64,000 nt of DNA from Halosimplex salinum. Its GTDB lineage: Archaea > Halobacteriota > Halobacteria > Halobacteriales > Haloarculaceae. Shown piece after piece: positions 29,001 through 34,935 of the stretch. The stretch is taken from contig NZ_QWGG01000010.1 in NCBI RefSeq assembly GCF_003730195.1, positions 1 to 64,000 of the forward strand, written 5' to 3'. Made by a program: the position numbers and the translations under genes. Numbering within the stretch: the stretch's first letter is position 1; every line of letters starts with the position of its first letter. The notes beneath the pieces were generated by a model. It searched no databases and was not told the DNA's origin. It saw only the letters and a program-made list of their open reading frames with translations.

Positions 29001-30362
29001 ATGACCCGACCCACCGACGCAGACGGCCGAACTCGACGCAAATTCCTCGGAGCGACGGTTTCGCTGGCGGCACTCGGACTCGCTGGCTGTTCGAGCGACG
29101 ACGGCGACGGCGGCGCTTCGACGGACGCGATGGCCACCGACACGCCGACGGCCACCCCGACCGACGCGATGGGCGGGACGACGGACACGCCGATGGCTAC
29201 CGACACGCCGACCGACGAGCCAACCGACACGCCGACGGCCACCGACGCGATGGCCGCGCCGGACGTGCCCCTGCTCAACTACGCGCTGACGCTGGAGCAC
29301 CTCGAGAACGCGTTCTACCGCGACGGCCTCGAACAGTTCAGCGACGACGAACTGACGAACGCCGACGCGCTCTCGAACTTCGGCGAGTCGGTCCGGAGGG
29401 AGGTCCCCGACTACCTCGCGACGGTGGGTGCCCACGAGGCGGCTCACGTCTCTGCGCTCTCGGACACCGTCGAGGCGCTCGGTGGGACGCCCGTCGGCGA
29501 AGGCGAGTACGACTTCGGGTACACCACCCCGACGGAGTTCCTCGCCGTCGCGCAAGCCCTGGAGAACACGGGCGTCGCCGCGTACGCCGGTGCTGCACCG
29601 CAGGTCGTCGACAACGACGTGCTCGCCGCGGCGGCGGGCATCCACAGCGTCGAGGCGCGCCACGCGAGCTTCCTCAACTTCGTCAACGGCGACAGCCCCT
29701 ACCCCGCGGGCGTCGACGAGGCCAAGTCGATCGACGAGGTACTCGAGATCGCCGGTGGGTTCATCACGAGCGACGTCGATCCGAGCGTCTACGAGACGGG
29801 CGACGACCGCCCGACCCACGACCGCAAGGCCGAGAACGACACGACGGACGTGAACGTCCTCAACTACGCGCTGACGCTGGAACACCTCGAGAACGCGTTC
29901 TACCGGGACGGCCTCGCGGAGTTCAGCGACGAGCAGATCACGAACGCCGACGCGCTCGACCGCTTCGGCGACGACGTGCGGATGGCCGTGCCGGACCATC
30001 TCCGGACCGCTGGCGCCCACGAGGCGGCCCACGTCTCCGCACTCTCGGACACCGTCGAAGCGCTCGGCGGAACGCCCGTCGAGGAGGCCACCTACGACTT
30101 CGGCTATACGACCCCGACCGAGTTCCTCGGCGTGGCGAAGGCACTGGAGAACACGGGCGTCGCCGCCTACAAGGGCGCCGGGCCGACGGTCTCGAACGAC
30201 GACGTGTTCGCGGCGGCTATCGGGATCCACAGCGTCGAGGCGCGCCACGCCGCCCTGCTCAACGAGATCAACGCGAGTTCGCCGTTCCCCGACGGCGTCG
30301 ACGAACCCAAGACGATGGACGAGGTCGTCGAGGTCGCCGGTCAGTTCATCGTCGAGGAGTAG
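29001..30362 (+). CDS. Lipoprotein with two tandem ferritin-like domains
   Basis: The 453-residue protein has a Tat-lipobox leader, RRKFLGATVSLAALGLAGC, then a Thr/Asp/Pro-rich linker. Two closely similar ferritin-like domains follow (about residues 92-260 and 285-452). Each has the di-iron pattern E in 'TLEHLENAFY', 'HEAAH', 'ENTGVAAY' and 'EARH'. At DNA level, 29278-29330 and 29860-29912 differ at only a few positions, so the duplication is recent or homogenised. It may handle iron or act as an oxidase outside the membrane; activity is inferred. Confidence 0.85.
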   Translation: MTRPTDADGRTRRKFLGATVSLAALGLAGCSSDDGDGGASTDAMATDTPTATPTDAMGGTTDTPMATDTPTDEPTDTPTATDAMAAPDVPLLNYALTLEHLENAFYRDGLEQFSDDELTNADALSNFGESVRREVPDYLATVGAHEAAHVSALSDTVEALGGTPVGEGEYDFGYTTPTEFLAVAQALENTGVAAYAGAAPQVVDNDVLAAAAGIHSVEARHASFLNFVNGDSPYPAGVDEAKSIDEVLEIAGGFITSDVDPSVYETGDDRPTHDRKAENDTTDVNVLNYALTLEHLENAFYRDGLAEFSDEQITNADALDRFGDDVRMAVPDHLRTAGAHEAAHVSALSDTVEALGGTPVEEATYDFGYTTPTEFLGVAKALENTGVAAYKGAGPTVSNDDVFAAAIGIHSVEARHAALLNEINASSPFPDGVDEPKTMDEVVEVAGQFIVEE

Positions 30363-30804: not shown

Positions 30805-31110
30805 ATGAGCACCCTGTTCACCATCGCGCGGATCGCCGTCGCCCTCAACGTCGCTCTACTGACCGTGCTCGGCGCGGTCTGGGCGCGCAACTACTGGACG
30901 CTCCGCTCGAAGCACACCCTCGGGATGCTCGTCTTCGCCGCTCTCCTGTTCGCCGAGAACGCCTTCGCCCTCTACTTCTACCTCTTCGACGAGGTCCTCT
31001 CGGCGTGGTTCAGCACCGCCGTCCCCGAGCCCGCCTGGCAGGCCATGCTCCTCTTCCACGTCCTCGAAACCCTCGCTATCGCCGTCCTCACCTGGGTCAC
31101 CCTGGATTAG
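30805..31110 (+). CDS. Small three-helix membrane protein
   Basis: The 101-residue protein has three predicted transmembrane segments: 'ARIAVALNVALLTVLGAVW', 'LGMLVFAALLFAENAFALYFY' and 'AMLLFHVLETLAIAVLTWV'. The charged turn 'NYWTLRSKH' separates helices one and two. It is the partner of the upstream winged-helix gene in a two-gene unit. Function not known; the conserved Glu and His in helices two and three could bind a metal or heme. Confidence 0.8.
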   Translation: MSTLFTIARIAVALNVALLTVLGAVWARNYWTLRSKHTLGMLVFAALLFAENAFALYFYLFDEVLSAWFSTAVPEPAWQAMLLFHVLETLAIAVLTWVTLD

Positions 31111-31371
31111 TTCGGAGCGTCTACTGGATTCGAGTGACCGCTCTCCGTGACAGTCGTCAGGACTCGAACGGCTCCCCGAACGTAACTGCGAACAGTGTGA
31201 CCGCTCCCGACTCCTTTCGCTCCCACCCGTGTCGGCTCGTTCGGCGGTCTGTGCGGGTGGGACCGAAAGGAGCGACGCTGTTTTGCGGTAGATCCACTGA
31301 CGAAGCGGCCCCGACTGACTCTTCCACGCCGAGCGGCGAAAACGATTTATCGACCGAGACGGATCTCTCAC
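31111..31371. other. Intergenic region with strong inverted repeat
   Basis: No gene was recognised. A 19-nt inverted repeat with one mismatch pairs 31211-31229 with 31254-31272 around a 24-nt loop. The arms carry CTCCTTTCG and CGAAAGGAG at the ends and CCACCCG / CGGGTGG inside. It lies about 100 nt after the small membrane protein gene and could be a terminator or a dispersed palindromic element. A TATA-like GATTTAT at about 31345-31351 begins the ileS transcription region. Confidence 0.7.
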
Positions 31372-31650
31372 GTAATGACGCGGCACGTCGTGCCCGCGGC
31401 GACGATCATCATTGCCCCGTCAGGGGCATAGTACCAACTTTCTCGGGGCACGACGGTTCGTTCGAGTTCGACAGCGCCGCCCGTCTCGTCGGGCGCTGCG
31501 GTCGTGAGTTCCTCACGAGACCGATCTCGTCACGGGCCCGCTCGTGCCGTGAGTCCTGATCCGACAGCGGTGACTCACCGGCCAGCGGTCGGCCCGCGGT
31601 GAGTCGCCGCGTATCGTCCACCGAACGACGCGACGAGACACATCTGAGCG
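31372..31650 (+). ncRNA. Long structured 5' leader of ileS
   Basis: The TATA-like GATTTAT at about 31345-31351, preceded by GCGAAAAC (BRE-like), places transcription start near 31372-31376, about 275 nt before the ileS ATG. The leader has at least five local hairpins: TGCCCC-gtca-GGGGCA (31413-31428), CAGCGCC/GGCGCTG (31472-31478/31492-31498), TCGTGAG-ttc-CTCACGA (31502-31518), TCACGG/CCGTGA (31530-31552) and GACTCACCG/CGGTGAGTC (31572-31605). No tRNA-like cloverleaf or ORF explains them. Regulation of the synthetase by this RNA is inference; a separate small RNA is the alternative. Confidence 0.45.
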
Positions 31651-34600
31651 ATGCCGGAACGATTACCAGACCACTACGATCCGAACGCAGTCGAACAGGC
31701 AGTCAAGGACTACTGGACGGACGCCGACGCCTTCCCGGGCGTCGACGCGCCCGAAGAGACCAGCCACGCATACGAGTACGCCAGACAGCGGGCCGAAGAC
31801 GGCGACGGCGAGGGGTTCTACTTCCTCGACGGGCCGCCGTTCACGAGCGGGCGGATGCACGTCGGCAACGCGTGGGGGAAGATCCTCAAGGACGCGCTCC
31901 TGCGCTATCACCGGATGCAGGGCAGGGCGGTTCGGGCCCGCCCGGGCTACGACACGCACGGCCTGCCCGTGGAGGTGAACGTCGAGCGGGCCCACGAGTT
32001 CGAGAGCAAGCAGGCCGTCGAGGAGTACGGCGTCGACCGTTTCGTGGACGAGTGTCGCGAGTTCGTCGAGGACCAGCGCGCGGTCATGGACGAGGAGTTC
32101 CGCGATCTGGCGGTGTGGATGGACTGGGACGACGTGTACCAGACGATGGACCCGGAGTACGTCGACACCGTCTGGGACGCCTTCGCCGCGCTGTACGACC
32201 GCGGCCTCGTCGAACGGGGCGACCAGGTCGTCAACACCTGCCCGCGCTGTGAGACCGCCGTCTCAGATTCGCGACTGGCGTACGAGGACCGGACGGCCGA
32301 CGCGGCGTACGTCGGTTTCCCGGTGGTCGATCGCGGCGGCGCGCTCGTCGCCTGGACGACGACGCCGTGGACCCTGGTCGGCAACCAGTTCGTCGCGGTC
32401 GACGCGGACGGCGAGTACGCGGCGGTCGAGGTGACGGGCAGCCCGGACTGCGAAGACGGCCCAGCTACCACGGACGGACCGCTCTACGTCGCCGCCGAGC
32501 GCGTCCCCGACGTGATGGCGGCACTGGGCGTCTCCGAAGGCGACTACGCCGTCCGCGAGACGCTCCCCGGAAGCGAACTCGTGGGACTGACCTACGAACA
32601 CCCGCTCGCGGACCGACTGCCGGACCATCCGACACTGCAGGGTGAAGTCGCCCACGCCGACTACGTCGAGACAGGAGGCGACGGAACCGGACTGGTTCAC
32701 AGCGCACCGGGGTTCGGTCACGAGGACTTCGAGCGTGCGCGGGAACTGGACCTGCCGACCTACTCACCGGTGGACCTCACCGGCCGGTTCACCGACGAGG
32801 CGGGGCCGTTCGCGGGCCTGCGCGTCCACGGCGAGGGCCGAGCGGCCGTCCTCGACGCGCTCGGCGAGACCGGAGCGCTCCTCGCCACGGAACAGTTCAC
32901 CCACGAGTACCCGCAGTGTCCACGGTGTGACACCGACGTGGTCATGCGGGCGGCCGAGCAGTGGCTCGTCCGGGTGACGGGGCTGAAAGACGACCTCCTC
33001 GACGCGGTGGAGGAGACGACGTGGTACCCGGCCGAGGCCCGCGACGGCCGCTTCCGCAACACCGTCGAGAACGCGCCCGACTGGAACGTCTCCCGCCAGC
33101 GCTACTGGGGGAGTCCCCTGCCCGTCTGGCACTGCGACGACTGCGACCGGGACGTTGTCGTCTCCTCGCGGGCGGACCTCGCCGAACGCGCCGGTCTCGA
33201 CGACGTCCCCGACGACCCCCATCGGCCCGTGGTCGACGAGGTGACCGTCGCCTGTCCCGACTGCGGCGGCGAGGCGACGCGCGTCGCGGACGTGCTCGAC
33301 GTGTGGTTCGACTCGGCGGTGGCGTCGTGGGCGAGTCTCCGCGAGTGCCCGAGCGAGAACCCGCGCCCCGACGACTGGCCCGCCGACCTCGTGGTCGAGG
33401 GCAACGACCAGACGCGGGGCTGGTTCCTAATGCAACTGTATCTGGGCGTGGCGTTCGCCGGCCGCGCCCCCTACGAGGAGGTCCTGATGCACGGCTGGGC
33501 GCTGCTGGACGGCGAACCCATGTCGAAGTCGCGCGGACACGTCCTGCGGCCGCCGGAGGTCGCCGAGGCTCACGGTCGAGACGCGCTCCGGGCGCACCTG
33601 CTCGGCCACGAACAGCAGGGTCAGGACGTGTCGGTGACCTCCGACATGGCCGGTGTGGAGACGACCCGCGAACGCTTCGACGTGGTCTGGAACGTCGCGC
33701 GCTTCGCGGGGATGTTCATGGCCGAGGACGACTACACTCCCACGCTGACCCTCGAATCCGACTCCGACGACCGGACCGTCCTCGACGAGTGGGTCCTCGC
33801 ACGCCTGCGGGAGGTGGTCGAAACCGCTACCGTGGCCTTCGAGGACCGCGAGCCGAACGTCGCGCTGGACGCCGCGCTCGATTTCCTCGTCGACGACGTG
33901 TCCCGGTACTACGTCCAGACGGTCCGGGACAGGGTGTGGACGCCCGACGCGACGGCGGACAAACGGGCCGCGTACGACGCACTCGGGACGGTCCTCGGGG
34001 TCTGCGTCCGCCTGCTCGCCCCCTTCACCCCGTACCTCGCCGAGCGGCTCTACCGCGCGCTCGACGGCCCCGCCGACGCGAGCGAACCGACGGTCCACGC
34101 GACGGACTGGCCCGAACCAGACGCGTTCGGACTGCCAGAGCGCCCGGCCCTCGTCGAGTCCGTCGAGGCGCTCCGGGCGGTGGAGAGCGCCGTCGCTCGC
34201 GCCCGACAGGAGATGGGTCGCAAACACCGCTGGCCGGTGACGACGGCGGTGGTCGAGACGACCGACGAGTCCGTGGCGACTGCCGTCGAAACCCATCGAG
34301 CGCTCCTCGCCGAGCGGTGCAACGTCGAGTCGGTCGAGCTGACGGAGCGGTACCCGGCCCGCGAGCGCGTCGTCGTGCCGGAGATGGACGCGCTGGGGCC
34401 GGCGTTCCGCGACGACGCGGCGGCGGTCGCGGACGCGGTGGCGGGTCGGTCCGCCGAGGAGCTACCGGTGACGGTCACCGTCGACGGCACCGAGGTCTCG
34501 GTCACGGCCGAGCAGGTCTCGGTGGTCGAACGGGTCCCCGACAGCGTGGTCCGGGTCCCGTTCGAGGGCGGGACGGTGTACGTCGACGAGTCGTTGCCCG

Positions 34601-34935
34601 AACGGCTCCGTCGACGGGGGCTCGCCCGCGACGTGACGCGGCGTGCCCAGGAGATGCGCGGAGAACTGGGGCTCGACGTCGATCAGCAGGTGCGACTGGC
34701 CGTCGTCGCGGAGGACGAACCGCTGGTCGAGGCCGTCACCGCCCACGCCGACGAACTCCGGGCGGCAGTCCGCGTCGCCGACCTCACTGTCGCGTCCGAG
34801 TCGACCGAACTCGACGGGGGGTCCGAACTGACCCGGAAGTGGACGGTCGATGGGGTCGCCGTGACCCTCGCGATGGAACCAACCGCTGTCTCGGGAGAGT
34901 CCGAGGAACCGCCGCACCGCGAAAGGATGGGATAG
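31651..34935 (+). CDS. ileS: Isoleucyl-tRNA synthetase
   Basis: The 1094-residue class Ia synthetase has the HIGH-type motif in PPFTSGRMHVGNAWGK (about residues 62-77), the CP1 editing domain (about 200-420, including the 'GTGLVHSAPGFGHEDF' stretch), a zinc-binding Cys set (CPRC; CDDC; CPDC), and the KMSKS-type loop EPMSKSRGH near residue 622. The anticodon-binding helical domain and a C-terminal domain follow. It charges tRNA-Ile with isoleucine and edits valine. All motifs are present and the length is usual for archaea. It has an unusual long leader. Confidence 0.97.
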   Translation: MPERLPDHYDPNAVEQAVKDYWTDADAFPGVDAPEETSHAYEYARQRAEDGDGEGFYFLDGPPFTSGRMHVGNAWGKILKDALLRYHRMQGRAVRARPGYDTHGLPVEVNVERAHEFESKQAVEEYGVDRFVDECREFVEDQRAVMDEEFRDLAVWMDWDDVYQTMDPEYVDTVWDAFAALYDRGLVERGDQVVNTCPRCETAVSDSRLAYEDRTADAAYVGFPVVDRGGALVAWTTTPWTLVGNQFVAVDADGEYAAVEVTGSPDCEDGPATTDGPLYVAAERVPDVMAALGVSEGDYAVRETLPGSELVGLTYEHPLADRLPDHPTLQGEVAHADYVETGGDGTGLVHSAPGFGHEDFERARELDLPTYSPVDLTGRFTDEAGPFAGLRVHGEGRAAVLDALGETGALLATEQFTHEYPQCPRCDTDVVMRAAEQWLVRVTGLKDDLLDAVEETTWYPAEARDGRFRNTVENAPDWNVSRQRYWGSPLPVWHCDDCDRDVVVSSRADLAERAGLDDVPDDPHRPVVDEVTVACPDCGGEATRVADVLDVWFDSAVASWASLRECPSENPRPDDWPADLVVEGNDQTRGWFLMQLYLGVAFAGRAPYEEVLMHGWALLDGEPMSKSRGHVLRPPEVAEAHGRDALRAHLLGHEQQGQDVSVTSDMAGVETTRERFDVVWNVARFAGMFMAEDDYTPTLTLESDSDDRTVLDEWVLARLREVVETATVAFEDREPNVALDAALDFLVDDVSRYYVQTVRDRVWTPDATADKRAAYDALGTVLGVCVRLLAPFTPYLAERLYRALDGPADASEPTVHATDWPEPDAFGLPERPALVESVEALRAVESAVARARQEMGRKHRWPVTTAVVETTDESVATAVETHRALLAERCNVESVELTERYPARERVVVPEMDALGPAFRDDAAAVADAVAGRSAEELPVTVTVDGTEVSVTAEQVSVVERVPDSVVRVPFEGGTVYVDESLPERLRRRGLARDVTRRAQEMRGELGLDVDQQVRLAVVAEDEPLVEAVTAHADELRAAVRVADLTVASESTELDGGSELTRKWTVDGVAVTLAMEPTAVSGESEEPPHRERMG

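Follow-up and report, generated by a model that had tools for sequence, protein, structure and literature searches.

The ileS2 gene of Halosimplex salinum, which encodes an auxiliary isoleucyl-tRNA synthetase (IleRS), is preceded by a leader that starts with a short open reading frame (ORF) containing three consecutive isoleucine codons. We infer from the sequence that ileS2 is probably induced by ribosome-mediated attenuation through this leader peptide when Ile-tRNA(Ile) runs short. On balance, we favour the broader reading that this is the first case in Archaea of ribosome-mediated control by an amino-acid leader peptide. A ribosome stalled on the leaderless isoleucine ORF would induce the auxiliary synthetase; it might do so by preventing FttA-dependent termination or by freeing a start that has no Shine-Dalgarno sequence. 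All features described here are located on the forward strand of the window, the 64,000-nt stretch of contig NZ_QWGG01000010.1 that was analysed. The first-pass annotation had described an ileS leader of about 275 nt, and the length of about 276 nt obtained from the predicted promoter bears this out. It had considered an RNA element. The leader is not an untranslated one, however, since its first 57 nt are a conserved ORF with isoleucine codons at the predicted 5′ end. The isoleucine leader ORF and the second-copy status of ileS2 had been overlooked.

The ileS2 gene (31651-34935) encodes a protein of 1094 amino acids. The product matches the profile TIGR00392 with 722.4 bits, above the curated cutoff of 621.4, and the MSKS motif and the CP1 editing motifs are visible in the alignment. 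Judged by its sequence, the product is a genuine isoleucyl-tRNA synthetase. The HIGH motif reads HVGN in the ileS2 products of Halosimplex, HCGT in those of the sister genus and HMGT or HLGT in the housekeeping enzymes. The mupirocin-hyper-resistant IleRS2 enzymes have a swapped GXHH signature, the G/AXHH motif (PMC10485003). Assignment of the window type to this group was rejected, as the swapped signature is absent and the HXGN/HXGT order is kept. The genome encodes a second IleRS, which shares 46% identity with the ileS2 product. All eight Halosimplex genomes encode this other type of enzyme, which shares about 46% identity with the window type (locus G000:C22:390272-393478 in one of them), and seven of them also encode the window type; the genomes compared include H. 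aquaticum and H. carlsbadense. One complete Halosimplex genome has neither the auxiliary ileS nor the leader. Across the order (392 genomes), the window type is confined to Halosimplex and one sister genus of the same family, whose proteins are 58-59% identical to it, and all other IleRS matches listed are at most 49% identical. No further window-type IleRS was found in the 146 family genomes searched with a strict threshold. The usual IleRS is also present in the four sister-genus genomes. In the pairs shown, the housekeeping enzymes share 55-71% identity among themselves and 42-49% with the window type. This implies that the gene of the window type is not a recent duplicate but either a distinct paralogue or acquired. 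No isoleucine leader ORF was found in the 300 nt upstream of the housekeeping IleRS gene. The leader seen in the first-pass annotation is indeed conserved and regulatory in appearance, but it belongs to an auxiliary IleRS gene of two genera and not to haloarchaeal ileS genes in general.

The leader ORF extends from the ATG at 31375 to the TAG at 31431 and encodes the peptide MTRHVVPAATIIIAPSGA. The three consecutive isoleucine codons, ATC ATC ATT, are located at 31405-31413 and are the putative control codons. The ORF is present in all 11 ileS2 orthologues of the two genera, 213-276 nt upstream of the ileS2 ATG, and the peptides are 17-20 amino acids long. The Halosimplex peptides are MTRHVVPAATIIIAPSGA (twice), MTRHRVPAATVSIIAPSGA, MTRHRVPAAAVSIIAPSGA (three times) and MTRHVVPAATTIIAPSGA, and those of the sister genus are MRCNAPSVGRAVSIIAPSGA, MRCNAPSVGRAVSSIAPSGA, MRCTAQFAGRTVSIIAP and MRCKALSGGRACTSIAP. 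Within Halosimplex, the sole indel is one codon long, the stop codons all agree, and the two terminal isoleucine codons swap synonymously between ATC-ATT and ATT-ATC. The indels are in frame in both genera. The last isoleucine codon abuts the hairpin C:D in every one of the 11 leaders. One to three isoleucine codons are located beside this hairpin, two or three of them in nine leaders; the sister-genus leaders retain just one or two, and only one isoleucine codon is strictly invariant. An Ile-Ala-Pro core is kept after the isoleucine codons in all leaders. The N-terminal half of the peptide is replaced between the genera (MTRH-VPAA versus MRC-A--GR), and SGA is missing from two of the peptides.

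Isoleucine has a frequency of 3% in the short ORFs of the window. Among the 142 short ATG ORFs, the leader ORF is the only one with three consecutive isoleucines and also the only one with a correctly placed TATA-like site. The combination TATA-ATG-Ile-Ile-Ile occurs twice in the 5.07-Mb genome, and the second site looks intragenic. A DNA search, a pattern search and a covariance model run over 392 genomes of the order detected no leader homologues outside Halosimplex and the sister genus. Two additional weak matches (G356 and G368) were rejected: they lack an isoleucine leader and seem to lie antisense to a gene of the cytochrome-oxidase type. A pattern search for tryptophan or histidine leaders of a like kind in 40 relatives gave many matches, near the control level and without frame information. 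The four sister-genus leaders start with ATGAGGTG, which places a Shine-Dalgarno-like GAGGTG within the ORF; about 65 nt further downstream, a conserved CATCTC tract is complementary to this GAGGTG.

The predicted promoter is located at 31337-31351 and consists of the BRE CGAAA and the TATA box ATTTATC (31345-31351). These elements correspond to the haloarchaeal promoter motifs, BRE CGAAA and TATA TTWT (PMC4983044). Each of the 11 orthologues has the BRE/TATA site about 30 nt upstream of its leader ATG, with a TATA-like hexamer at -33 to -29. No comparable site precedes the ileS2 ATG in Halosimplex. In Haloferax, 72% of the mRNAs are leaderless and start at the start codon (PMC4983044). Together with the position of the promoter, this suggests that the leader ATG is probably the start of the transcripts and that the ORF is read without a 5′ UTR. 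Since the conserved isoleucine ORF is located at the predicted 5′ end, the transcript start (about 31372-31375) is predicted at the ATG of this small ORF and not near that of ileS2, which follows about 276 nt later. The sequence upstream of the ileS2 start contains no Shine-Dalgarno motif. Further upstream of the leader, a hydrophobic ORF of 101 amino acids (30805-31107) has no Pfam match, and the region 29001-30362 encodes a protein with two tandem ferritin-like (PF13668) domains. These domains are 69% identical over 177 amino acids, which points to a recent internal duplication.

Hairpin C:D (TGCCCCGTCAGGGGCA, 31413-31428) has a perfect 6-bp stem, as reported in the first-pass annotation. 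The hairpin is located directly 3′ of the isoleucine codons, begins at the final base of the last one and overlaps the end of the leader ORF. It is conserved in all 11 leaders. In two sister-genus genomes the stop codon has shifted into the C:D loop and the stem is still kept, which indicates that the stem is constrained as RNA. The hairpin annotated earlier at 31572-31605 is likewise present, with perfect 9-bp arms. Its conserved part, P5 (31569-31608), is formed by GGTGACTC (31569-31576) and GAGTCGCC (31601-31608). The first-pass annotation had tied a leader RNA element to compensatory changes among relatives, and P5 displays them: three pairs are changed on both sides and every cell is paired. 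Over the whole structure, 99% of the cells are paired; the figure is 97% for shuffles and does not exceed 45% when the structure is slid. A:B, E:F and the other helices are mostly invariant and therefore draw no support from covariation. The folding energy of the whole leader is unexceptional (z = -1.7; 5 of 100 shuffles are at least equally stable). The signal that exceeds chance is comparative, namely the pattern of invariant columns among the species and the compensatory changes in P5.

In the alignment of the seven Halosimplex species, columns 1-90, comprising the leader ORF, the hairpin and segment E, are 80% invariant. Columns 166-183 (segment F) are nearly invariant, and columns 121-165 between them contain no invariant column. 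The helix E:F is invariant amid variable flanks. Segment A (GCGGCAC, 31380-31386) pairs with segment B (GTGCCCGC with the word GTGCCCG, 31390-31397), and both are invariant in the seven species. Segment E (CTCGGGGCACGACGG with the word GGGCACGA, 31442-31456) pairs with segment F (CCGCTCGTGCCGTGAG with the word TCGTGCCG, 31538-31553). The alternative partner of A is F and that of B is E, and the words can therefore be arranged in two mutually exclusive ways, either as A:B plus E:F or as B:E plus A:F. Of 1000 shuffles, 999 give weaker pairing than B:E and 983 weaker pairing than E:F (tails of 0.1% and 1.7%). Caution is called for, as the A, B, E and F words are near-palindromic and a parallel-orientation control gave nearly as many conserved 7-mer matches (three versus five). 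The Halosimplex consensus fold comprises the hairpins A:B, C:D and P5 and the long-range helix E:F, which closes the variable part. Thermodynamic folding places some of the sequences in the A:B/E:F state and others in the B:E/A:F state. Segment G (GTCTCGTC, 31483-31490) is complementary to segment H (GACGAGAC, 31632-31639), located 12-19 nt before the ileS2 ATG, in most Halosimplex sequences.

The leader stop codon is followed by a pyrimidine tract (TTTCTC region, 31439-31444), which is invariant within each genus; in the sister genus it reads CATCTCCTTCT and is fully conserved. The sister-genus fold consists of the hairpins A′ and C:D and a weaker E′:F′ helix. A conserved-complementarity scan of the four sister-genus sequences, which has little power at this number, did not find the A, B, E and F words. 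The only six-base matches that it found in all four were GAGGTG/CATCTC and CGGGCG/CGCTTG. No hairpin with a U-run, i.e. no intrinsic terminator, was found in the leader.

We propose that transcription begins at, or a few bases from, the ATG at 31375. Ribosomes would therefore load on the 5′ end and translate the 18-codon peptide as the RNA emerges. When Ile-tRNA(Ile) is plentiful, the ribosome would pass the isoleucine codons, terminate at 31429 and leave. C:D would then re-form and A and B would be free to pair, giving the "off" fold; the departure of the ribosome would also free B for E. When charged tRNA(Ile) is scarce, through isoleucine starvation or inhibition of the housekeeping IleRS, the ribosome would stall on the isoleucine codons. 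It would mask the 5′ arm of C:D and, if stalled on the first isoleucine codon, also B. With B covered, E would pair with F in the putative "on" fold, and ileS2 would be expressed. In a masking simulation, a ribosome that has an upstream footprint of 12 nt and is placed on the last isoleucine codon leaves B mostly free and tips the B:E/E:F balance in some sequences only. A clear and consistent shift to E:F is obtained only with the ribosome at early codons (codon 4).

As the leader lacks an intrinsic terminator ending in a U-run, the sequence does not reveal the output step. It may be premature termination in the untranslated spacer, perhaps dependent on FttA, or occlusion of the ileS2 start, which has no Shine-Dalgarno motif, by G:H pairing. 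Archaeal polarity has been attributed to FttA (PMC12548453). FttA favours RNA rich in U, and coupled ribosomes have been hypothesised to exclude it (PMC11616081). Termination-reinitiation between the leader and ileS2 was also considered. It is unlikely, since the gap is about 220 nt and studies of Haloferax report little coupling of this kind over distances above 30 nt (PMC12548453).

In its anatomy, the sequence strongly resembles known attenuation systems. The S. coelicolor auxiliary tryptophanyl-tRNA synthetase gene is reportedly preceded by a short upstream ORF with cognate codons, as is ileS2. This Streptomyces coelicolor gene is described as being under ribosome-mediated attenuation (Vecchione and Sello 2010, as cited in PMC4787780). 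In both cases a second, non-housekeeping synthetase gene would be under ribosome-mediated control. The logic of the target, an auxiliary enzyme alongside a housekeeping synthetase whose gene has no such leader, supports attenuation here as well. However, ileS2 belongs to an archaeon, the amino acid is isoleucine instead of tryptophan, the leader ORF is predicted to be leaderless, and a structured spacer of about 220 nt without an intrinsic terminator separates the leader stop from the gene. Bacterial leader peptides precede the trp, ilv and cys operons and some trpS and leuS genes (PMC1262725). The ileS2 leader shares with the bacterial attenuators of the trp, his and ilv operons and pheST the control codons, the adjoining hairpin and the alternating segments 1-2-3-4. 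Unlike in these attenuators, segments 1 and 2 precede the control codons instead of overlapping or following them, there is no U-run terminator, and the transcription and translation machinery is archaeal. The Mycobacterium cys operons have candidate leader peptides without terminators, for which Rho has been proposed (PMC1262725). They share with ileS2 a conserved ORF with cognate codons, pyrimidine tracts and the lack of an obvious terminator hairpin, but they are bacterial biosynthetic operons with Rho as the proposed factor, whereas the gene studied here is an archaeal aminoacyl-tRNA synthetase gene for which FttA may play this part. An archaeal precedent for leader-peptide attenuation was not found in the open-licence literature searched.

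In a different type of control, the leader RNA alone would be an operator to which IleRS, uncharged tRNA or another factor binds, much like the E. coli thrS operator, and the short ORF would be incidental. The conserved stems C:D, E:F and P5, the retention of C:D where the stop codon sits in its loop and the possible occlusion of the ileS2 start by G:H are consistent with such an operator. It is nevertheless unlikely, because the leader ATG coincides with the predicted transcript start in 11 of 11 orthologues, the frame, the isoleucine identity and the in-frame nature of the indels are kept while the isoleucine codons vary synonymously, and no Rfam family was found in the leader. It is quite improbable that leader translation merely lowers or buffers ileS2 expression as a constitutive upstream ORF, with no isoleucine sensing. 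Such an ORF alone can impede downstream expression, and the single strictly invariant isoleucine codon fits this explanation, but the rarity of isoleucine in short ORFs contrasts with the two or three codons before the hairpin in nine leaders, and the downstream gene encodes an isoleucine enzyme. A functional microprotein encoded at 31375-31431 and unrelated to ileS2 control would account for a conserved ORF with its own promoter. This is very improbable for a peptide of 17-20 amino acids with an N-terminal half unconserved between the genera; moreover, the ORF is found only before this ileS, and the conserved RNA segments run past its stop to the ileS2 start.

The ribosome could also be stalled by the nascent ...IIAP peptide or by an inhibitor of IleRS or of the ribosome, instead of by a shortage of Ile-tRNA. 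The conserved Ile-Ala-Pro core points in this direction, and so does the target, since auxiliary synthetase genes are often tied to inhibitor resistance. Arrest or drug sensing of this kind is distinctly unlikely, however, as the upstream residues are wholly different between the genera and SGA is dropped in two leaders; little beyond Ile-Ala-Pro therefore appears to be under peptide-level constraint. T-boxes acting on translation precede the same type of gene, ileS, in Actinobacteria (PMC1262725), and they resemble the control proposed here in that an RNA leader responds to tRNA charging. A T-box riboswitch can practically be dismissed for ileS2. The leader gave no Rfam match at the gathering threshold and none to the T-box family (RF00230) at E values up to 10. 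Neither the T-box sequence nor a Stem I with specifier was found in it, and the nearest match to the consensus, with three mismatches, is located upstream of the promoter. In the ribosome-mediated attenuation that we favour, the translating ribosome would be the sensor instead.

Attenuation by the translating ribosome is a textbook form of bacterial control, and archaea also couple transcription and translation. A natural, compact case in the culturable genus Halosimplex would make feedback from ribosome position testable in Archaea, whether it acts on RNA polymerase, on FttA-dependent termination or on initiation without a Shine-Dalgarno sequence. In bacteria, back-up synthetases have been linked to resistance against natural synthetase inhibitors. 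If the proposed control is true, it would suggest that haloarchaea keep inducible back-up synthetases.
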